36,549 nucleotides of DNA from a virus: IMG/VR virus record IMGVR_UViG_3300033153_016030, positions 1 through 36,549 of that record, one strand, 5' to 3'. Every line of letters begins with the position of its first letter. Position 1 is the first letter of the stretch. Below are positions 3,105 to 36,549 of the stretch, piece after piece. The translations under genes and the position numbers were made by a program. The notes below the pieces were generated by a model. The model saw nothing but the letters and a program-made list of their open reading frames with translations, did not search any database and had not been told where the DNA came from.

Positions 3105-3974
3105 CTATCTCCGATGTAGTCCACCAGTTATAAGAGGCGTTCTATACATTCTTTCGTTTTCGTCTTCTATGAATTGTTTATAGTGTTGAAATATATCTCT
3201 AGGCACCGAATAGTCATGTTCACGCGACTGTGTAGCCAAATGTCGTACAACGCGTGGCATTCCGAATTTCGGATTCTTGAAGTCCTCATCGTTGCGCTCG
3301 CATTCTTCTCGCGCCTGCGATATCGCATGTTCAATCTTGTCTGCGGGCATGACTGGCATATGCGGCTTTTCGATTATATGTCTTGATACGCGCTGGATCT
3401 TTGGAAGGTCAATCTTCTCCTTGAAGAAAGTCTGATCCTTAGTGTAATATAGTTTTCCAACGACGCCTTCCTTGCGATGCCGCTTGCACCATTTGAGCAT
3501 TTCATCACGAATCACTAATATATCTTCAACAGTCTTGGAACGCGATTCTCTCACGAGTTCAACTATAGGTATCCGATAGTGGTGTGCCATTTGATGTGTG
3601 GCATTATATGTTATATACGAATCGGTTTTGCGCACATATATGTCGATAATAACCAAATGCTGATATTTACGCTTCGGCTCAATCCGACATGGTCCGCGAC
3701 CAACCGGCATATGCTCGGCATATACAATCAGACCCTGATGGTCCGTTATAAGTTCAACCACCCTGGGATACTCTGGGCATGCGCGAATTGCGTTCTGGAA
3801 ACTCGCTTCGGCAACTTCCATGTTGCGTGATCCGAATGTGACATTCTCTCCGTCCCACCAGAAACGTACATTTTGTCCGTCCCGCTTGCAAGTCCATGAG
3901 ATATGCTGGCCGATAAGTTCGCGCCCGCTATTTCGCAGTTGATCGATTCTTCCTATGTGTTCAAATTTTCTCAT
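3105..3974 (-). CDS. ATP-dependent RNA ligase (nucleotidyltransferase family)
   Basis: Predicted to join RNA ends through a ligase-AMP intermediate. Motifs of the covalent nucleotidyltransferase superfamily are in order: motif I K30-R-D-G, FGSRN (47-51), YAEHM (85-89, motif III/IIIa region), EGVVGK (169-174, motif IV) and FFKEKI (183-188, motif V). The length of 289 aa and the absence of a DNA-ligase-type OB fold with RxDK favour RNA ligase over DNA ligase; residues 190-289 form a charged C-terminal domain. The start at ATG 3974 has GGAGG 7 nt upstream. RtcB at 34.7 kb is a second, unrelated RNA ligase; together they imply active RNA repair or splicing during infection. Confidence 0.88.
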   Translation of the reverse strand: MRKFEHIGRIDQLRNSGRELIGQHISWTCKRDGQNVRFWWDGENVTFGSRNMEVAEASFQNAIRACPEYPRVVELITDHQGLIVYAEHMPVGRGPCRIEPKRKYQHLVIIDIYVRKTDSYITYNATHQMAHHYRIPIVELVRESRSKTVEDILVIRDEMLKWCKRHRKEGVVGKLYYTKDQTFFKEKIDLPKIQRVSRHIIEKPHMPVMPADKIEHAISQAREECERNDEDFKNPKFGMPRVVRHLATQSREHDYSVPRDIFQHYKQFIEDENERMYRTPLITGGLHRR

Positions 3975-8152: not shown

Positions 8153-9124
8153 CTAGAAAAAGTCGTCTAGTGCTCTGACCTTCTTGAGATTGCTCGCGAC
8201 CGCGATTGTGCACTCGCTTGGCGCTTTGTCGGGCCGATCTCTTATGTATCTTGGGTGGCGATATCCGCCTTTCGATGTTTTCTCCATATAAGCTATCTCA
8301 ATTGTCGTTGGTGTTTTCACTTCGTATTTGCCATCCACTATGTTGAATAACTTTCCGAAATCTTCGCGCTGTTCATCTGTGAACCCACTGACCGTTGTAA
8401 GCACGTTCGCTTTGCCATTTGTGTATTTCCCAACAGAAAGTGCGCCTATCATTCCTTCATATTTGCCTTGTCCGGGAATAGCGCCGAATATTACAACGTC
8501 ATCTGTGTGTATTGCTTTTATCTTCTTCCAGCATGAGCGCGAGCGACTCTTTGTGCTTGCAAAATACTGGGAGTCGTTTTTCTTAAGCACAACGCCCTCC
8601 ACCTCTCCTTTGACCATTTTTGTTAGTGTAACATTGAGCGCTACGCCGACCAATACTTGTGATGTTTTCCAGCGTGTATTTTTAATTCCACGAATTGTTT
8701 TGCATATATTTTCTCGTCTCAGGGTGTAAATTGATTTGTCTGTCGTATCTCTGATGTGGTCATACACAACAAATGATATTAAGCCATGCTCTTTCATAAG
8801 CACTTCTGTTCGCTCCGCGCTACCGTGTAATGTTCCGAGCTTCGCAGATTCCATGCCTTCGATATATAGTTCGCCGAAATAGTAGCCGTCCGGTACGCCT
8901 TCCATATTCTCTGTAAGATGTGGCACATGATCTGTGTATTCAGTATATTCGCCCGCAACTGCTGCTGGCGATCGTGCAAAGAAACGCGCGACTCCATTCT
9001 CGACAATGCATTGCGTTCCGAAACCGTCATATTTTAATTCTGCGGTCCAACCATCTGCAATCATTTCCTCTGCTTTCGTCTCGTCCTTCAAGAGGACTGG
9101 CTTCATCATTCCAATCGGGTCCAT
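8153..9124 (-). CDS. ATP-dependent DNA ligase (323 aa)
   Basis: Seals nicks during replication. Nucleotidyltransferase motifs: K31-Y-D-G (adenylated Lys), FGELY (83-87), EGVVLKK (176-182), WKKIK (199-203). The C-terminal OB fold (GKYEGMIGALSVG, about 220-233) ends in RDRPDK (295-300), the DNA-ligase RxDK motif. It is a minimal viral form without an N-terminal DNA-binding domain. ATG 9124 overlaps the homing endonuclease stop by 1 nt and has GGAAGTGG upstream; an upstream in-frame ATG at 9160 lies inside the endonuclease gene and is unlikely. Confidence 0.93.
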   Translation of the reverse strand: MDPIGMMKPVLLKDETKAEEMIADGWTAELKYDGFGTQCIVENGVARFFARSPAAVAGEYTEYTDHVPHLTENMEGVPDGYYFGELYIEGMESAKLGTLHGSAERTEVLMKEHGLISFVVYDHIRDTTDKSIYTLRRENICKTIRGIKNTRWKTSQVLVGVALNVTLTKMVKGEVEGVVLKKNDSQYFASTKSRSRSCWKKIKAIHTDDVVIFGAIPGQGKYEGMIGALSVGKYTNGKANVLTTVSGFTDEQREDFGKLFNIVDGKYEVKTPTTIEIAYMEKTSKGGYRHPRYIRDRPDKAPSECTIAVASNLKKVRALDDFF

Positions 9125-9792
9125 TATTCCACTTCCATTTTTTTGCGTTCCTCTTTCCATGTTTCAAATTTGTCGAATTTTCTTTTTAAATATAATGTTT
9201 TATTAGCGTCTTTATATAACCAATCTAAACATTTATAGAAATCCACATTGCGGCGAATTTGTATTTGATATATATTATCTTGCTTTCGAATATTGGATTT
9301 TACATCGAGATTCTTTTCAAGAACTTCTGCGACACCTTCTAAAAATTCTTTTGTTCCTAAGAGTTTCCAATCACATCTAATTGAAGTTGGAAATTTTTTA
9401 TCAAAATTCCAATATACACATCCATCGCCATCGCTATATCCACGAATAAAGTGTCTAAGTAAATGTTCTGGAACAGTTGTAGGAAACTTTAAGATTAAAC
9501 TTTTCCGCGGAACGCAACCATGTTTAATCAAATCTTGCGCCATTTCTTTGCTACCTATTTGGATGTAAACAGTTTCTCTTCCTCTTTTTTGACAAATAGG
9601 ATGTTCAGAACAAAGTGCTCTACTGAATCTTTTAATGATGTTTTTATCTCGTTTATGAAGTTCAAGACCAACACGCCAAATATGACGTTTATCTTGTACT
9701 ACATATCCATCTGCAAACATAAATCCTAAGAAATATGCCTTTTCTTCGGTATCTATGGTTTCGAAATATTTTCTATTGCAATATTTTGTCAT
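9124..9792 (-). CDS. LAGLIDADG-type homing endonuclease, copy 1 (222 aa)
   Basis: A free-standing double-motif LAGLIDADG enzyme. Motif 1 is AYFLGFMFADG (19-29) and motif 2 HFIRGYSDGDG (114-124); D28 and D123 are the expected metal-binding acids. It is closely related to the genes at 19261-20040 and 35899-36549, sharing long blocks such as the QDLIKHGCVPRKSL stretch. The reading frame is intact. It lies between two genes without breaking either, with an AGGA site upstream and its stop overlapping the ligase ATG. It is expected to cut an allele lacking it and spread by repair. Confidence 0.93.
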   Translation of the reverse strand: MTKYCNRKYFETIDTEEKAYFLGFMFADGYVVQDKRHIWRVGLELHKRDKNIIKRFSRALCSEHPICQKRGRETVYIQIGSKEMAQDLIKHGCVPRKSLILKFPTTVPEHLLRHFIRGYSDGDGCVYWNFDKKFPTSIRCDWKLLGTKEFLEGVAEVLEKNLDVKSNIRKQDNIYQIQIRRNVDFYKCLDWLYKDANKTLYLKRKFDKFETWKEERKKMEVE

Positions 9793-18747: not shown

Positions 18748-19264
18748 CGAATATTGCCTCCAATAGTTGTTCTGGTGGAAATATTTTTGGACGCGCACCT
18801 ATCTTTAGTGAGATAATTGCGTTGTCGCGGATTATTTCCCAGCGTATTCTTGTTCGTTCCGCATTTTCTTCTATCAATCTTTTTAATACATTGGGAAGCA
18901 TTAAAAATACTTCTTCTTTTCCGTGGAATAATAGGAAATAGTAGCGCCCACCCATTTCGTTAAAAATCCACCCATAAGTAAATTGATGATCTCTAATATA
19001 ATTGTCGTCACCAGATCTGAATATATACGAGGCGCTATTTTTACAACTTTTAACTTCGATAAATGCATATTTATCATTTTTAAACAATTCAAAATCCGAA
19101 GGCGCTTTTGGAGCCTGGTAGCGAGATCGGAAATGGTGTTTACAGCGCGGGCATTCAACTTGGATGAATGATTTAAAATCTGGCCATTTAAGACAAACGA
19201 TTCCGGGTACACTATTCATCGCCTTTTTAAAACACGATTCTGCCCATTGTCCACGGGTATTCAT
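18734..19264 (-). CDS. RecU-like Holliday-junction resolvase / PD-(D/E)XK nuclease (176 aa)
   Basis: Residues G5-QWAE9 (helix 1 Glu), APSDFEL (D57) and FIEVKS (E70, K72) form the PD-(D/E)XK active site, followed by HQFTYGWIFNEMGGRYYFLLF, the RecU-type DHQ...GG.ayfli block. A CPRCKHHF insertion (38-45) adds a half zinc knuckle not typical of RecU. Predicted to cut branched DNA produced during recombination-dependent replication. Its ATG overlaps the homing endonuclease stop (ATGA). Confidence 0.78.
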   Translation of the reverse strand: MNTRGQWAESCFKKAMNSVPGIVCLKWPDFKSFIQVECPRCKHHFRSRYQAPKAPSDFELFKNDKYAFIEVKSCKNSASYIFRSGDDNYIRDHQFTYGWIFNEMGGRYYFLLFHGKEEVFLMLPNVLKRLIEENAERTRIRWEIIRDNAIISLKIGARPKIFPPEQLLEAIFDVRK

Positions 19265-20040
19265 AGATTTTCCCCCCGCGACTTTAGATAATTCATTTGT
19301 TTATAATGTTTTCGACATAATCCTTTAGCGCAAAATTCTGCTTCACATTCACAATTATAATTTGTAGATTTTTTATCCAATTCTATTTCAAATATTTTCC
19401 GAGCATTTTTCCAACTTTCAAATTTATCCATTTTTCTTTGTAATAATAATGTAATATCGATATCTTTATATAACCATTCGAGCGATTTTTTAAAATCGGA
19501 TATACGCGAAATTCTTATTTCATAAACATTATTTCGTTTACGTAGGTGCGCATCAATATTAAGTTCATTATTAAGAAGAACTCTAATACCCATAAGAAAT
19601 TCCTTTGTTCCCAATATTGACCATTCGGAAGTTACATTCGTTTTATATTTATTATATCCCCAATATATACATCCATCACCATCTGAATATCCACGTATGA
19701 AGTGCTTAAGTAAATGCTCTGGAACTGTTGTGGGAAACTCTAATATCAAACTTTTCCGTGGAACACAACCATGTTTAATCAAATCTTGCGCCAATTTTTT
19801 ATTTATTATCTGGATTTTAACCATATTTCGAGATGTGGTAATTGGATGCTTCGATTCTAATGCACTTTTAAATCGTTCAATAATAATTCTATCTTTTTTA
19901 TGAAGCGAAAGTGTCGTACTCAAAGTCCCATTTTTATATTTATATACGCACCCATCTGCAAAAAGAAATCCTAGAAAATATGCTTTTTCTTGCGTATCTA
20001 TAGTTTCAAAGAAATCTCTATTGCATTGATACATATTCAT
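19261..20040 (-). CDS. LAGLIDADG-type homing endonuclease, copy 2, with C-terminal zinc tail (259 aa)
   Basis: Motif 1 is AYFLGFLFADG (20-30) and motif 2 HFIRGYSDGDG. It is strongly similar along its length to copy 1, including QDLIKHGCVPRKSL and PTTVPEHLL. Unlike copies 1 and 3 it has a tail of about 35 residues with C-x-C-x4-C and GLCRKHYKQ, a zinc knuckle like those appended to phage HNH endonucleases that probably aids DNA binding. It overlaps both neighbours by 4 nt (ATGA), so it is perfectly fitted between the Cas4-like and RecU-like genes. Confidence 0.93.
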   Translation of the reverse strand: MNMYQCNRDFFETIDTQEKAYFLGFLFADGCVYKYKNGTLSTTLSLHKKDRIIIERFKSALESKHPITTSRNMVKIQIINKKLAQDLIKHGCVPRKSLILEFPTTVPEHLLKHFIRGYSDGDGCIYWGYNKYKTNVTSEWSILGTKEFLMGIRVLLNNELNIDAHLRKRNNVYEIRISRISDFKKSLEWLYKDIDITLLLQRKMDKFESWKNARKIFEIELDKKSTNYNCECEAEFCAKGLCRKHYKQMNYLKSRGENL

Positions 20041-29461: not shown

Positions 29462-31051
29462 TTACGCTCCTGATTTTTTTGCCATCTCTACTTCGTGCGC
29501 CAAGTCGAATTCCTTTTCTGGGCTGTATCCATATGGTCGGCTTCTACTTAATGCGTCTGCGCCGATTTGTTTAAGCAGTCTACCCGCATATGGTTTAATT
29601 GCCGGTAGAATGTCCTGTAAAGGACTAGGTGTGACGCCAAATGCCGAATGATATGGACTAGACCACGCACTATGCATCGTATAGATTTCTGGTTTATCCA
29701 TACACGTATTCGCTGGCGACATTACGAGTAACATACGCGAGGCAATGTGATCTTCTTCGATGTAGATATTGTTATCATCCGCCGAAGAATCAATACATAT
29801 ACCAGACTGCGTTATGCGATGAAATCCAATTGGATAGTCAGGATTTATCGTATAAAGATGCCACTTCATTGTTGGTTTGCGCTTACGCCCAGCAATTTCA
29901 AAGACCAAGATATAGCGGTCATTCTTGTGCAACTTTTTCCATGCCTTTGTTTTCTTTTCGTCCATGCCGGGAATAACTTTTCCAGGGACAAACTCATACG
30001 AGATAGTTATCTCATATTTAGAATGCCGCACAACGTGTCTCTTTCGCGCCGCATAATCTTTAATGAGCTTCTGACCGCGCCCAATCACATGTGAGAGCTT
30101 GTCGCCTTTCTCTGTAAATGTGATCAGCCATTCTTTGTCGCGCCATTCTTTCGATAGCACGATATATTCCTCAATAAAATCGACTGTCATCTCTACATTT
30201 TCACGCGTTGATTTGTTAGAGCGGAACATCGACTGTATCTGATTCATATCTGCACGCGGATTGTTGCGGAACGATCTATATATCGGCACTGGCGCAAACC
30301 AGGCAATACTTTCATGTTCCATAATATCATCTACATTTGGCGGACGATATCTAGGAACATTCATTGGGTTAAATACTATCGCTATCGCATAATCTGTATC
30401 GAGCATCGAAGAGCATATCAGAAATGCTTTATTTGGCATTTCAATGTAGAATTTGGATCCAGCGTTTGCCATTGTAACTAGCGATTCAAAGGGATCCGCT
30501 TCCACAGTTTTCTTTTTCTTTGTTTTTGACATATCCCCAATAGACGATGTCGAATAAAGTTCATCTATATAGAGGCGCCCATTATACTCATTCTTGCACC
30601 GAGACCATTTATCGCGGTAATATGTGCCATTATAAAGAAAATACATATCTTTATTGTCATATTTTATATCATAGACACGCCCGCCATCGGATACAAATAT
30701 AGTATATGGCATTGGCAATTCGCGCATCAAATACCTGAATGGTAGATCGCCAAGACGATATGGACTTCCAGAACTAGAATAATAGCGCGAATTATAGATT
30801 GACTGATTCATTCCCAGTAATCTAACTTCATCTGTTTCCTCGCCAACGCCTCGCACTTTAAGTAATTCAGTCGCCATCTGGGAAACATTATAATATGTTT
30901 TATATTGTTCGTCGATGTTCATTTTTGTTACTACCCACGAACGCGGATTTATATTATAATGTCCGATTGGCGTTTGGATCGTTCCATCATCGTTAACCCA
31001 CGGCAAGTGCCACCCTTTGATTTGGTCGCCATTATCTATTCTTTCGAACAT
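29462..31051 (-). CDS. Large protein of unknown function; possible E2-like region (529 aa)
   Basis: The protein as a whole is not recognised. It is the last member of the ubiquitin-like operon. The region at about 340-450 has the order expected of an E2 (UBC) fold: beta strands YEITISYEF, RYILVFEI and TMKWHLYTI, then NPDYPIGF (compare E2 YP-x-P), then SGICID with C419 where E2 enzymes have GxICLD, then a helix HIASRMLLVM. The HPN motif is missing. The N-terminal 330 residues contain a tyrosine-rich region and a Lys-rich linker (KTKKKK). The alternative is an unrelated structural or effector protein. GGAGG lies 7 nt before ATG 31051. Confidence 0.4.
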   Translation of the reverse strand: MFERIDNGDQIKGWHLPWVNDDGTIQTPIGHYNINPRSWVVTKMNIDEQYKTYYNVSQMATELLKVRGVGEETDEVRLLGMNQSIYNSRYYSSSGSPYRLGDLPFRYLMRELPMPYTIFVSDGGRVYDIKYDNKDMYFLYNGTYYRDKWSRCKNEYNGRLYIDELYSTSSIGDMSKTKKKKTVEADPFESLVTMANAGSKFYIEMPNKAFLICSSMLDTDYAIAIVFNPMNVPRYRPPNVDDIMEHESIAWFAPVPIYRSFRNNPRADMNQIQSMFRSNKSTRENVEMTVDFIEEYIVLSKEWRDKEWLITFTEKGDKLSHVIGRGQKLIKDYAARKRHVVRHSKYEITISYEFVPGKVIPGMDEKKTKAWKKLHKNDRYILVFEIAGRKRKPTMKWHLYTINPDYPIGFHRITQSGICIDSSADDNNIYIEEDHIASRMLLVMSPANTCMDKPEIYTMHSAWSSPYHSAFGVTPSPLQDILPAIKPYAGRLLKQIGADALSRSRPYGYSPEKEFDLAHEVEMAKKSGA

Positions 31052-31476
31052 GTTTTTCCCTCCGATTTCAATGACTTAACAACTTTTCGAAGTGTCGCAA
31101 GCGTTGGCGTTGCAGTATTATGGAGATTGTTGCCCGTCTTAATTGCGCGCACTTGTTTCCAAATTTTGAAATCGTGCTGATGAACACCTTCAACAATGTC
31201 GGCGTGTTTTCCGAAAAGAAATTCATCCGTGAAATACCAGCGCATTGCCTGAATTACCAAAATATTCATAGCATTCTTTTCCACGTTTTTGTGTGTTTTA
31301 CAATACGCATAAACAATGTATTTTGAGAATTCTTTTTGCTCACGTTCTGCGCAACTCTCCATTAATTGCATCGCATAGCTTGTTGGTAGCTTCGCCGCGT
31401 CTGAATCTGTAAATTCCCATGGGAATTTAACCTGCACTGTTTTCTTTGCGGCGCGCCCACGTCCTATTCCGTCCAT
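31036..31476 (-). CDS. Hypothetical protein between E1-like and 529-aa genes (146 aa)
   Basis: Function unknown. A basic N-terminus (GRGRAAKKTVQVKFPWEF) followed by a helical core with several aromatic residues (MRWYFTDEFLFGKH). Position overlapping both E1-like and 529-aa genes suggests a part in the same pathway. No ubiquitin, E2 or RING signature is visible. Confidence 0.65.
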   Translation of the reverse strand: MDGIGRGRAAKKTVQVKFPWEFTDSDAAKLPTSYAMQLMESCAEREQKEFSKYIVYAYCKTHKNVEKNAMNILVIQAMRWYFTDEFLFGKHADIVEGVHQHDFKIWKQVRAIKTGNNLHNTATPTLATLRKVVKSLKSEGKTCSKE

Positions 31477-32135
31477 GATATCTCACCTACACTAAATTTA
31501 TTGCGTATAAATGTGATTATGCGACTAGGATCGTATCCATATTTAGAATAGCTGGTCTCTATTTCTTTGAAAACCATAAGTGCTGTTCTCATTCCTGATG
31601 TATTATCCACATCTGCTTCCCCACGAGTGCGGCACGAAGTTGGTTTATCGCCAGTTTCAGACATAGATTCTATCATTTTGATTTCCTCATCAAGCTTTTT
31701 AATGTATTGAGGAATACGCTGGCATCCAAAAACATATACATTTGACATAGAAGCATTTGTGCGGGCATCTATTATAAATGTAGACATATAACTTGGATTT
31801 CTTATATCTTTTATGCCTTCGAGAATCTTTTTGCGTGTCCCAAGAGAATCTGTTGCCAATATGATAATTCTCGCATCGTTTGTGTTTTTCATTATCAATT
31901 TGAACATCTTTGCGTCATCATCAACTGGCACAACATTCTCTTTCCCATACAATTGACCAATCACATCGACTTTTTTCATTCCCGCGTCACCTTTTAAATA
32001 TATTTGGTTCGCGGTATTTTTTGGTTCGACACGATCAAAATCGCAAATATATATTTTATGTCTTGGCGCTAAAGCGACCGTCAGAAAGCTTCCTATTCCG
32101 CCAGCACCAAAAATATAAACATCTGGTCTCGACAT
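31464..32135 (-). CDS. ThiF/E1-like ubiquitin-activating enzyme (223 aa)
   Basis: Expected to adenylate the C-terminal Gly of a ubiquitin-like protein. The Rossmann nucleotide site is GAGGIGS (10-16), followed by CDFDRVEPKN-x2-NQ (D32, D34, N43, Q44, the E1 D...N-x-RQ region), K54/K55, and ATDS (D96). C168 in TSCRTRG is a candidate thioester Cys. At 223 aa it is a minimal ThiF/MoeB-type enzyme without extra domains. ATG 32135 has AGGTG 5 nt upstream; GTG 32141 is the alternative. The JAB gene stop overlaps this region, so the two are coupled. The E1+JAB+beta-grasp set recalls PRTRC and Bil/CBASS ubiquitin-like operons. Confidence 0.88.
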   Translation of the reverse strand: MSRPDVYIFGAGGIGSFLTVALAPRHKIYICDFDRVEPKNTANQIYLKGDAGMKKVDVIGQLYGKENVVPVDDDAKMFKLIMKNTNDARIIILATDSLGTRKKILEGIKDIRNPSYMSTFIIDARTNASMSNVYVFGCQRIPQYIKKLDEEIKMIESMSETGDKPTSCRTRGEADVDNTSGMRTALMVFKEIETSYSKYGYDPSRIITFIRNKFSVGEISWTE

Positions 32136-32137
32136 AA

Positions 32138-32671
32138 TCACACCTTACTTGTGGGATGATTTTCCGCATAGTCGGCAAACTTTTGCATCTTAACTTCTGC
32201 TATGCGGTTTTCTTCGGTCGGCATTTCACTCCAATCCAAGAGGAAGTCGCCAGATTGGTTCGCCAAAAGATATCTTTTTATTCGGCGTGATCCCCAAGCC
32301 TTCTGTGTATGTTTATCGAGACTGCTTGGACCAGTTGAACTTCCAGTGCCAGGATGTATATGCAGCCAGTATTCCACTGGGATGCATCTTGGTGGACATT
32401 CTACAAGCACAGATTCGCCTATGCGAAAATCGTAGCCTTTCTTATGCTTAACAATCGCCACTTCTAGTTTTAACAACTTAGATACGGCAGCAGCCATGCG
32501 AACAATCGCTTCGATGTTTTCCTTATCTCCGTCCGATAAGTCTATCTCGACGACTTCTACCATGTTTGGCGATGTCAGGTTCGGTTTCCATTCTGCGAGT
32601 TCTTCAAGAACAGCGTCATATTCTTCACCGCTGATCTGTTTTCGTCGCAAAAGTTTATCTAATATACTCAT
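32138..32671 (-). CDS. JAB/JAMM (MPN) metalloprotease (177 aa)
   Basis: H104-I-H106-P ... P115-S116-S-L-D119 is the zinc-binding JAMM signature (H-x-H ... S-x2-D), with spacing two residues longer than the standard x7. An upstream Glu should act as general base; E69 and E91 are candidates. Family members remove ubiquitin or process ubiquitin-like precursors next to Gly-Gly. The frame is open upstream through the tRNA-like element, but ATG 32671 with GGAG 8 nt before it is the clear start. Probable substrates are the LRGG-containing protein encoded just upstream, or its conjugates. Confidence 0.8.
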   Translation of the reverse strand: MSILDKLLRRKQISGEEYDAVLEELAEWKPNLTSPNMVEVVEIDLSDGDKENIEAIVRMAAAVSKLLKLEVAIVKHKKGYDFRIGESVLVECPPRCIPVEYWLHIHPGTGSSTGPSSLDKHTQKAWGSRRIKRYLLANQSGDFLLDWSEMPTEENRIAEVKMQKFADYAENHPTSKV

Positions 32672-32708: not shown

Positions 32709-32780
32709 AGTGGCGGATGGGATTTGAACCCATTCGCTTTAGATAGCTCTACCATGCGCCGCGCGCAATAGCTCCGCCAC
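32709..32780 (-). tRNA. tRNA-like element 4, no anticodon arm
   Basis: 72 nt, i.e. normal tRNA length. Acceptor GTGGCGG/CCGCCAC (7 perfect pairs) and T-arm ATGGG-TTCAAAT-CCCAT are canonical; discriminator T. The D-arm 3' half GGTAGAGC is present, but its loop carries a perfect hairpin TGCGC-GCG-GCGCA. Only 12 nt remain before the T-arm, too few for a 17-nt anticodon arm, so it cannot decode. Placed between the ubiquitin-like and JAB genes, it may act as an RNase P/tRNase Z processing site or a tRNA mimic. Confidence 0.55.
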
Positions 32781-32809
32781 ATTAAGGAAAAGGGTTGGGA
32801 GAAGCGCGA

Positions 32810-33178
32810 CTACATACGCTTCTCGAAAAGAACTTCATCGCCTACGCCAACTAGAGCCAATTTCTTGACCTGCGCAAACGTTGCTTTTCTCTTGCGTGTG
32901 TTGTAAACCCAGATTCCTCCGAGCTTATCCGCGAGGGAAAACGCGTCCTTTTCTGCGACCGGGGCTATTATATGATCTCTTCCACCTCTCAGCGGGAGCG
33001 TCACATCCACGATCTGTTTGTCGCTCTGAAGCCTGACCTCGATATCGTCCGCTTTGGTCATCTCTCCGTCGACATATAGATATACGTTTTTCTTCTTCTG
33101 AAGATACGCAACTGCTTCCGCAACTGGAAGCGTCATGCGCACATCACCTTCGACACTTGCCTCTATAATGTTTACCAT
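32810..33178 (-). CDS. Ubiquitin-like beta-grasp protein with LRGG and C-terminal extension (122 aa)
   Basis: Residues 1-66 fit ubiquitin: beta hairpin VNIIEASVEG/DVRMTLPV, helix AEAVAYLQKKK, strand VYLYVDG, then ADDIEVRLQSDKQIVDVT and L-P-L-R-G-G at 61-66 (ubiquitin ends LRLRGG). 66 residues to Gly-Gly compares with 76 in ubiquitin; the central helix is shorter. Residues 67-122 are an extension that would have to be removed to expose Gly-Gly, work suited to the neighbouring JAB protease; the E1-like enzyme would then activate it. ATG 33178 has GGAG 10 nt upstream. Similarity is by pattern only; a chance LRGG in another beta protein is the alternative. Confidence 0.62.
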   Translation of the reverse strand: MVNIIEASVEGDVRMTLPVAEAVAYLQKKKNVYLYVDGEMTKADDIEVRLQSDKQIVDVTLPLRGGRDHIIAPVAEKDAFSLADKLGGIWVYNTRKRKATFAQVKKLALVGVGDEVLFEKRM

Positions 33179-33204: not shown

Positions 33205-33438
33205 TTACATTCGCGCCAGCGCGTCCTCTAAATGCGCTTTGGTATCGAATGCTGGAGCTGGATGTGTTGAATCGGCGCAATCGCGCGCCATACGTAAATC
33301 AAGAAGTAAATGCTGATCACCATAATCTTTAGCAATATCTATCGCTTCTTTAATCAATATTTTGCTTTCATTTCGCGACTTCGCGATAGCGTGTTCTATC
33401 AAATCTTTTATTTTCCCGTGAATTATTTCTGTTGTCAT
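33205..33438 (-). CDS. Hypothetical helical protein (77 aa)
   Basis: All-helical, rich in Ala, Ile, Lys and Asp (IKDLIEHAIAKSRNESKILI). No motif. GGAG 9 nt before ATG 33438, which overlaps the upstream stop. Located just before the ubiquitin-like gene. Confidence 0.66.
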   Translation of the reverse strand: MTTEIIHGKIKDLIEHAIAKSRNESKILIKEAIDIAKDYGDQHLLLDLRMARDCADSTHPAPAFDTKAHLEDALARM

Positions 33439-33965
33439 TATCTTATTCTCCTTGGCATTGAAGACATTTCTTTTGATAAGAAGTAATGCGTTTGCGATTT
33501 CCCTTCAATCAATTCTATGCCTGTCTTTATTCCGTCAATATATTTCGCTAATCCATGTTTGTGTAAGACTTTCTCCAAGTCTGCAATATTAGCGTCACAT
33601 ATTCTAGCGCGATTAATTTGTCGAGTATCATAATTATTCCTATGATGCCAATGTTTAACAACGCGCATATCATATTCTTTATCGACCTTCTTTATAAAGA
33701 TTTCTATCAAACGGTTAGCGCTGAAGATCGGGCGACCATTATTGAATCTCATTGGCACAAGAGGTTCTCCATGAAGCGCGCAAACTATTGTTGCCGCTGA
33801 ATCAGTATATTCTCCTTGTGCACAGAACCATATATGCGCATTCTCTAATGGATAGTCGCGAAATTCTTCTTTAAGCGCGCGTTTAATCACAAAGTGGTCG
33901 CGCACAATATCGAATTTGACATTATGGGGTGCGTTTGCTTTCGGCCATGCAATTTCGAACCACAT
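33438..33965 (-). CDS. Hypothetical protein (175 aa)
   Basis: ATG 33965 has GGAG 8 nt upstream and follows the upstream stop after one base; the longer frame overlaps the zinc gene and is rejected. An alpha/beta protein with a His cluster (KHWHHRNN, about 110) and a basic C-terminus. Function unknown; its place at the head of the ubiquitin-like operon may be meaningful. Confidence 0.66.
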   Translation of the reverse strand: MWFEIAWPKANAPHNVKFDIVRDHFVIKRALKEEFRDYPLENAHIWFCAQGEYTDSAATIVCALHGEPLVPMRFNNGRPIFSANRLIEIFIKKVDKEYDMRVVKHWHHRNNYDTRQINRARICDANIADLEKVLHKHGLAKYIDGIKTGIELIEGKSQTHYFLSKEMSSMPRRIR

Positions 33966-33966
33966 A

Positions 33967-34188
33967 TTAGCGACTCCATTCGTATCTTTGCCCAGGCTCC
34001 TTTTTTTCCGCGTGTTGAATTGCACTTTCAATTGATTCATTTAATTCTGCGCGTATGCAGTCAACTGAACAATAAGTATATGTTTTTCCGCTCCACACAT
34101 CTATACGTAATTTTCCCACTGCGGTCCCGCAATGTTCGCATTTCTTTTCACTTTTACCTTTTAAAGGCCAAATGTTAATATATAGCAT
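33967..34188 (-). CDS. TRASH/MYM-like zinc protein (73 aa)
   Basis: CEHCG (17-21) and YCSVDC (39-44) followed by an acidic helix form a treble-clef-like zinc motif. First gene after the 221-bp gap; GGAGG lies 8 nt before ATG 34188, so it is the likely first gene of the ubiquitin-like operon. Confidence 0.72.
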   Translation of the reverse strand: MLYINIWPLKGKSEKKCEHCGTAVGKLRIDVWSGKTYTYCSVDCIRAELNESIESAIQHAEKKEPGQRYEWSR

Positions 34189-34699: not shown

Positions 34700-35878
34700 T
34701 CACTCCGATTTCAGATTGTATATCGATTTCAAGCGTATAGTTATATCAACAGTTTCCTCAATATGTTTCATAACAGAACCTGTTTCCTTATACGCAAATT
34801 TGCTTTCATCGATAGTTTTCGAAGAGATAGACGTTGAGAAAATACCTTCCATAGATTTCTCAAAATCTTCCATCGTAACTTCGCCACGCTCCAAGCGCCG
34901 CCCCATCTCTTTTCTGCCAAATGCACGCCCAGCGCCATGTGGTGCAGAATAATTGTAATTCTTATTCGACTTGCCCTGCCCGATAATAACACCCTCCGCC
35001 ATATTCAGCGGAATAATTACCGTTTGGTCAGAATGGGCAGAAATAGCGCCCTTGCGAATAATGTGATCGCGTGGTGAAATGTAATTATGCACAGATTCAA
35101 TAGTTTTTGTTGTATCAATTAATTCACCAAAAAAGTCCATAATTTCGCTGAGCATTATAAATCGATTCAAACTTGCATATTCTTGCGCAACTTCTGTCCA
35201 ATTTAAATATGCTGTTCCACCAGCGCTCATCGGAAGATATTCAAGTCCATCTGGAACGAGAATTCTCATCTCATTGGTAATCGTTTTCGCCATCTTCTGA
35301 AAATGCGTAGCGACTTTGAGTCCGAAATTACGCGAGCCAGAATGAATAACAATATACTGTTCTCCATCTGGCGCCTGATCTATCTCTATGAAATGATTTC
35401 CTCCGCCGAGCGTTCCTATTTGTCGTGCTGGGTCGGTACTCATTTTAACATCATATTTTTCAAAGAAATTTTCACGAATAAGTGAACTCATATTTGCAAC
35501 GCGAATCATTATTTCATTGCTATTAGCTAAAGACTGCGCCAATTCTATTCCATGGGAATTAAATCCAAGGGGCACGCGATTTCTAATATGAGCATCGAGC
35601 GCCTCGAAATCAATCTTGCGCTTCCCGATAGGATAGGCAAGCACGCCACATCCAATGTCCACACCAACAATGTTTGGTATGACCGCGTTTTTAAATTTCC
35701 CGGTAAATCCTATTACACAGCCGGCACCAGAATGAACATCAGGCATTATCGCAATTAAGTCTTTAAAAGCGGGATGACTAATAGTTCGTTCAATTTGTTC
35801 ACGCGCTGATTCTTCGACCAAATCAGCGTGAATTAACAACGCCGTATTTTGCTCTATAATTTTAACTTTATCGTTCAT
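34700..35878 (-). CDS. rtcB: RtcB-type RNA ligase (392 aa)
   Basis: Joins 2',3'-cyclic phosphate to 5'-OH RNA ends using GTP and Mn; in archaea this is the tRNA-splicing ligase. Conserved blocks: MPDVHSG (45-51), VGVDIGCG with C77, GGGNHF (158-163), HSGSRN (179-184), HN at H264, and SAPHGAGR with guanylated H314. It has the short form (about 390 aa) often seen in phages and RtcB2 types. ATG 35878 has GGAG 8 nt upstream; TTG 35884 is the alternative. Natural substrates here include the element's own intron-containing tRNA-Glu, or RNAs cut by host defence ribonucleases. Confidence 0.95.
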   Translation of the reverse strand: MNDKVKIIEQNTALLIHADLVEESAREQIERTISHPAFKDLIAIMPDVHSGAGCVIGFTGKFKNAVIPNIVGVDIGCGVLAYPIGKRKIDFEALDAHIRNRVPLGFNSHGIELAQSLANSNEIMIRVANMSSLIRENFFEKYDVKMSTDPARQIGTLGGGNHFIEIDQAPDGEQYIVIHSGSRNFGLKVATHFQKMAKTITNEMRILVPDGLEYLPMSAGGTAYLNWTEVAQEYASLNRFIMLSEIMDFFGELIDTTKTIESVHNYISPRDHIIRKGAISAHSDQTVIIPLNMAEGVIIGQGKSNKNYNYSAPHGAGRAFGRKEMGRRLERGEVTMEDFEKSMEGIFSTSISSKTIDESKFAYKETGSVMKHIEETVDITIRLKSIYNLKSE

Positions 35879-35898
35879 TTTCAATTCTCCTTAAATAT

Positions 35899-36549
35899 TT
35901 ATTCTCTTTTCCATTGCTCAAATTTTTCGTGTTTTCGTTGTAAACATAATGTTTTATCGGAATCTTTATAAATCCAGTCGAGACATTCGCGAAAATCTAA
36001 TTTCCGCCAAATTCTCAATTGGTATATATTATCACGTTTAGATATATGATAATGAATATCAAATTTTTCATAGAGAATGTTTGCTATTTTTTGAAGGAAA
36101 TCATTTGTTCCCAAAATAGTCCAATGGTTTTCTATTGATTTTATTCTTCTTTTATCATAATGCCAAGATATACATCCATCGCCATCGCTATATCCTCTTA
36201 TAAAATGTCTTATCAAATGATCTGGGATTGTAGTGGGAAACTTAATTGTGAATGTTTTTCGTGGAGTGCACCCATGTCTAATTAAGTCTTGCGCCATTTG
36301 TTTGCTCCCGATTTGAAATTTACATTGTTTATAATTGTCATAATTATGATTATAAATAGGATGTTCCGATTTTAAAGCAACGCGAAATCTTTCAAGTATA
36401 GATTTATCTTTTTCGTGCAATTTAATTTGAACAGAATAACCACCATGCGAATTTTGGAATACGCACCCATCTGCAAACATAAATCCTAAGAAATACGCCT
36501 TTTCTTCTGTATCTATTGTTTTAAAGAATCTTCTATTTGCTTTATACAT
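35899..36549 (-). CDS. LAGLIDADG-type homing endonuclease, copy 3 (216 aa)
   Basis: AYFLGFMFADG and HFIRGYSDGDG motifs are intact. It is related to copies 1 and 2 along its length (QDLIRHGCTPRKTF, PTTIPDHLI). Its N-terminus (MYKANRRFFKTIDTEEKAYF) aligns with the starts of the other copies, so the gene appears complete and its ATG is the last codon in the window, although a few more residues upstream are possible. It precedes rtcB by 20 nt. Confidence 0.92.
   Translation of the reverse strand: MYKANRRFFKTIDTEEKAYFLGFMFADGCVFQNSHGGYSVQIKLHEKDKSILERFRVALKSEHPIYNHNYDNYKQCKFQIGSKQMAQDLIRHGCTPRKTFTIKFPTTIPDHLIRHFIRGYSDGDGCISWHYDKRRIKSIENHWTILGTNDFLQKIANILYEKFDIHYHISKRDNIYQLRIWRKLDFRECLDWIYKDSDKTLCLQRKHEKFEQWKRE

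Follow-up and report, generated by a model that had tools for sequence, protein, structure and literature searches.

A candidate viral ubiquitin-like precursor with an internal LRGG site, encoded beside JAMM and E1-like genes

Results and discussion

A viral fragment of 36.5 kb (the whole 36,549-nucleotide stretch analysed here, hereafter the window) encodes a 122-residue protein in which an LPLRGG motif is followed by a 56-residue extension, and downstream on the same strand lie genes for a JAMM/JAB-type metalloprotease and a ThiF/E1-like adenylyltransferase. We regard it as about an even call that the 122-residue protein is a viral ubiquitin-like precursor (pro-Ubl) that undergoes processing after G66 before the viral E1 activates it. 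We hypothesize that it would be made as a precursor and serve as modifier in a ubiquitin-like system that the virus encodes, that the viral JAMM protease would cut it after G66, and that the freed LRGG end would be adenylated by the ThiF-like E1 and passed to C167 of that enzyme. The modifier would then be transferred to target proteins, perhaps via a 529-residue protein with a GIC motif, and the JAMM enzyme may also remove it from its targets. For the 122-residue protein we thus infer a beta-grasp fold, along with cleavage, activation and conjugation. The fuller proposal, that the virus encodes its own ubiquitin-type conjugation with an LRGG modifier kept inactive by a folded 56-residue extension and switched on by the viral JAMM, we hold only tentatively and think rather doubtful. 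By analogy to ubiquitin-ribosomal protein fusions, the freed extension may be a second product.

If these proposals are correct, complete modifier systems in which the precursor matures in ubiquitin style exist in viruses of prokaryotes, which would bear on the origin of pro-ubiquitin processing and on the targets that viruses tag while infecting.

A small minus-strand gene with an internal LPLRGG motif

The candidate gene is an open frame of 122 codons on the minus strand (33178..32810, with its ATG at 33178 and its stop at 32810), and by eye an AGGAG site lies directly 5' of the ATG. An earlier note had described a ubiquitin-like precursor at 32810-33178. This location is right but the strand is minus; the plus strand across the same interval is not an open frame. 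The protein reads MVNIIEAS...DVTLPLRGG|RDHIIAPV...LFEKRM, and so the motif and the extension described in the earlier note are both present: LPLRGG, the putative processing and activation site, occupies residues 61-66 (32998..32981, minus) and is followed by exactly 56 residues (67-122; 32813..32980, minus). Because this Gly-Gly is internal, processing would be needed to expose it. Given the composition of the window, an exact LRGG would occur by chance anywhere in 122 residues with a probability of ~0.0015, and the looser pattern [LIVM][RK]GG with one of ~0.012; only three sites of the looser kind are found in all the listed ORFs of the window. We count the improbability of LRGG in this gene in favor of the pro-Ubl reading, and the 122-residue protein is also the sole candidate modifier in the cluster.

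The extension matched no family in our searches, and an unconverged, low-confidence AF2 model gives it four strands at residues 86-120. Its length and these modelled strands, unlike a short propeptide, would fit a protein with a true Ubl domain that always stays in one piece, its two domains fixed together as in the phage tail protein TAPI, which in its lambda type combines a Ub-like domain with a C-terminal domain (PMC1779556); the JAMM enzyme would then act elsewhere. We consider this most improbable, since the neighboring E1 requires a free C-terminal Gly and since the tails of related Ubls, described below, are mostly 0-3 residues long, which indicates that a free Gly counts.

JAMM and E1-like genes lie downstream of the candidate

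In the order of transcription, the cluster consists of p200, p77, the 122-residue gene, a 138-nucleotide gap, JAMM, ThiF, p146, p529 and RNase H, and the genes that flank the candidate lie on its strand. The JAMM, ThiF, p146 and p529 genes overlap end to end and form one operon, unlike the candidate and JAMM genes, which are separated by the 138 nucleotides, within which a tRNA-like element lies; this separation counts against the pro-Ubl reading. The upstream ORFs p77 (77 residues; 33205..33438, minus) and p200 (200 residues; 33438..34040, minus) and the 146-residue p146, which overlaps both its neighbors (31036..31476, minus), match no family, in the case of p77 none above cut-off.

The earlier note's claim of an adjoining JAMM-motif gene also stands, as a gene with all the JAMM residues lies directly downstream on the same strand. 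It encodes 177 residues (32138..32671, minus), starts with an ATG at 32671 behind an AAGGAG site, and contains the pattern E-x(n)-HxHP-x(7-8)-SxxD in the form of E70, H104, H106, S116 and D119. In an alignment with viral and bacterial Prok-JAB-like proteins, H104, H106, P107, S116 and D119 are invariant, while the Glu, E70, was assigned by eye from its position only. The 177-residue protein by itself is below the Pfam thresholds; it aligns with its Prok-JAB-like relatives over residues 102-143 (hhalign E 0.0019), and one of these relatives matches PF14464 at E 3.4e-5, just below the cut-off. A low-confidence AF2 model built from 9 sequences places a helix at 50-66, a strand at 71-74, a strand with the HxH at 99-106, a helix at 117-127 and a strand at 131-138, and this order of elements, so far as such a model can be read, is that of JAMM proteins. 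A Foldseek search with a model of this confidence is meaningless.

The next gene, two downstream of the candidate and on the same strand, encodes a 222-residue ThiF/E1-like adenylyltransferase (31464..32132, minus), which matches PF00899 above the cut-off (E 4.1e-11). It retains the GxGGxGS motif, the DxD motif as DFD, and a catalytic-type Cys, C167; the invariant residues in a 9-way alignment are G9, G11, G14, S15, D31, D33, K54, D95 and C167. The score against the PRTRC ThiF model is far from its cut-off (27.8 vs 144.75 bits). In a tree of ThiF proteins the window protein joins viral 6d-like cassettes with support of 95/89, on a very long branch (2.95) that makes its position unsure.

The same enzymes would serve a different pathway if the mature Ubl were a sulfur carrier of the ThiS/MoaD/QbsE kind, with the same precursor logic and a thiocarboxylate used in biosynthesis or tRNA modification. 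JAMM-trimmed sulfur carriers exist, as in the QbsD/QbsE pair. ThiF models gave the E1 its highest scores, which still fall far short of their cut-off, and RtcB, an RNA ligase and the tRNA-like element are found in the same virus. Against this, the annotation of the window includes no rhodanese or sulfurtransferase, the related cassettes contain an E2-like or GICL protein, and the LRGG tail is ubiquitin-like. We therefore consider a sulfur carrier distinctly unlikely.

The fourth member of the operon, p529 (529 residues; 29462..31051, minus), has no Pfam match and contains SGICID with C419. Its motif YPIGFHRITQSGICID aligns, weakly, with the GICL protein of related cassettes (hhalign E 0.018, residues 376-427). 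The GIC(L) motif is invariant in the GICL family, whose members are encoded with ThiF and JAB in bacteria and in other viruses, and on this similarity p529 may be an E2-like/GICL component. Separately, neither p529 nor p200 gave a profile match to the E2-like proteins found in cassettes of the marine or clostridial type, and we rejected them as E2 proteins of those kinds. A match to p200 in locus L107 falls inside a DNA polymerase ORF and was set aside as chance.

The fold of residues 1-66

The earlier note had held that the residues before the motif follow strands in ubiquitin order, a claim that comparison did not support: a global alignment of residues 1-60 with ubiquitin 1-70 scored 0.5, at chance level for shuffled sequences (mean -1.2, sd 8.0, P 0.40), and retention of the LRGG in the shuffles gave P 0.36. 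The single-sequence AF2 model of the 122-residue protein had a mean pLDDT of 37.7 and is not usable, and at such confidence Foldseek matches are meaningless. Similarity of the body of the protein to ThiS or MoaD was not above chance. Furthermore, no similarity to the Ubls of related cassettes and no homolog in viral contigs, phages or plasmids was found, and searches of Pfam, NCBIfam, PHROGs and the PDB returned nothing significant.

These results bear on the possibility that the RGG is incidental and that the protein is some other small beta-rich protein and not a modifier, either with a lipoyl/hammerhead-like structure across residues 38-73 or with a small barrel in its second half. The E1 and JAMM enzymes would then have a host Ubl (a SAMP, for example) or the product of an unrecognized gene as their substrate. 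The chance-level ubiquitin score is as expected for such a protein, and the PDB search at E<=10 returned a single match, to a lipoyl domain (residues 37-74, E 0.53). The pairwise z to this best-matching lipoyl domain is 7.3, and three more lipoyl domains share this register (DK..V..P..G) or come close to it, with P 0.05 and 0.01 for two of the three. This alternative deserves weight because LPLRGG would become the common P-x-x-G step of the lipoyl fold. However, the lipoyl match is not significant database-wide, Biotin_lipoyl (PF00364) gave no Pfam match even at E<=10, and a lipoyl profile built without the best match was equalled or exceeded by 194 of 3000 shuffles (P ~0.065). There is also no reason for a lipoyl domain to be encoded beside E1 and JAMM genes. 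Altogether we think an incidental RGG somewhat unlikely. A GroES-like second half was also considered; it gave P 0.01 against a hand-made consensus, not against real GroES proteins, and was rejected.

Related cassettes encode Ubls with ragged tails

We gathered related viral and bacterial loci through ThiF alignments and compared the residues that follow the terminal Gly of the Ubl in L003, L005, L011-L016, L022-L030, L127, L132 and L138-L140. The small genes beside ThiF and JAB in these relatives encode products that end in a conserved Gly, and for one of them there is a weak match to Ub-like families in Pfam. Most have tails of 0-3 residues. No residue follows the Gly in L024, L029, L127 and L139; other tails consist of one residue (PFG|A, PFG|T and PFG|F), two (AL and SR) or three (DVD). 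Marine phages have GAKG|N and L140 has NGG|L, whereas L005 appears by eye to have GVKG and ~21 further residues, and L003 and L016 have tails of 61 residues that by eye are unlike each other.

Such tails, unconserved and variable in length beside JAB and E1 genes, are as expected if JAB trims the precursors, and next to them the 56-residue tail in the window is unremarkable in kind. From these sequences, Ubl precursors beside JAB and ThiF would be a recurrent design in divergent viral and bacterial relatives, and the pattern suggests that maturation by JAB is a general feature of Ubl/ThiF/JAB cassettes. The presence of ragged tails (0, 1-3, ~21 and 61 residues) beside JAB in viral and prophage-like cassettes holds independently of the 122-residue protein, and it opens JAB maturation to parallel tests in several phages.

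Two other genes recur in these loci. A protein of 280-385 residues with an invariant GICL is encoded beside ThiF and JAB in L016, L023-L030, L123, L130 and L138 and is possibly an unrecognized E2-like family. In gut-type Ubl/E2-like/JAB/ThiF cassettes (L010, L017, L018, L019, L021 and L124-L126), a reverse-transcriptase-like ORF of ~380 residues lies near ThiF, downstream, and is possibly a diversity-generating or defence RT.

Comparison with known systems

Ubl, E1-like, E2-like and JAB proteins are known to be encoded together on mobile elements, both plasmids and integrative elements, and the trimming of the phage Ub-like TAPI by JAB has been predicted (PMC1779556). Mobile Ubl/E1/JAB cassettes are thus already known, and the layout in the window would be a variant of them. 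As in the class 6d/PRTRC-type systems of Iyer et al. 2006, the candidate Ubl, E1 and JAB are together, and in the tree the ThiF groups, on its long branch, with those of viral 6d-like cassettes; unlike in PRTRC, the ThiF misses the model cut-off, no ParB-type genes were noted, and an E2 is represented in the window by a weak motif only.

A further resemblance is to what we call the Rctr197k-type cassette of viruses and bacteria (L003, L016, L022-L030, L127 and L139), which consists of a Ubl ending in RPKTPFG, a Prok-JAB, a ThiF and a GICL protein. Here too ThiF and a JAB (HxHPGxG..PSxxD) accompany a small Ubl candidate, two members have 61-residue tails after the terminal Gly that recall the 56-residue extension, and the GICL protein has a counterpart in the GIC motif of p529. 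In contrast, the window Ubl ends in LRGG and has no detectable sequence similarity to the Rctr197k-type Ubl, the gene order differs, and the ThiF is ~20-30% identical and falls outside the Rctr197k clade in the tree.

A biochemical precedent for the proposed maturation comes from archaea, where Rpn11/JAMM strips a 9-residue propeptide off pro-ubiquitin, thereby exposing the GG and permitting activation by E1 (PMC5654768). The operon of Caldiarchaeum subterraneum resembles the window in having residues beyond the GG and an adjoining JAMM gene (PMC5654768). However, its propeptide has 9 residues rather than 56, its modifier has clear ubiquitin homology, which our candidate lacks, and it has a RING E3, whereas no RING was found in the window. 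JAMM-type putative deSAMPylases are also encoded by Borgs, archaeal mobile elements, and have been proposed to strip host SAMP (PMC12660748); the virus studied here encodes both an E1 and a candidate modifier itself. Our literature searches found no viral Ubl precursor with such a layout, which is limited evidence of novelty.

Protease-activated maturation, as the earlier note had suggested it, is thus plausible by analogy and in part supported, by the E1 and JAMM genes downstream, the ragged Ubl tails in relatives and the archaeal precedent. The beta-grasp of residues 1-66 is the part that found no support, and for the 122-residue protein the idea is unproven.

The virus and its other genes

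The B-family polymerase of the virus is closest to those of haloarchaeal tailed viruses (~26%), and the virus probably infects archaea. Its nearest kin by PolB (L036-L041, 32-34%) and 24 more related records had no ThiF match. Single-protein scans with ThiF and PolB turned up no relatives, nor did a scan with the JAB alignment.

In the tRNA-like element that lies in the gap between the candidate and JAMM genes (window 32709-32782, minus), the acceptor-type stem spans 7 bp (GTGGCGG/CCGCCAC) and the T-arm is perfect (ATGGG-TTCAAAT-CCCAT). The element is devoid of a normal anticodon arm; ARAGORN reported nothing, and Rfam tRNA-Sec scored only 14.7 bits. The virus also encodes RtcB and an RNA ligase (34700-35884 and 3105-3974, minus), beside RNase H, as an RNA-repair set. 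Finally, three similar ORFs of the LAGLIDADG homing endonuclease type are present (9124-9792, 19261-20040 and 35899-36549, minus), one confirmed by Pfam and the others recognized by eye.
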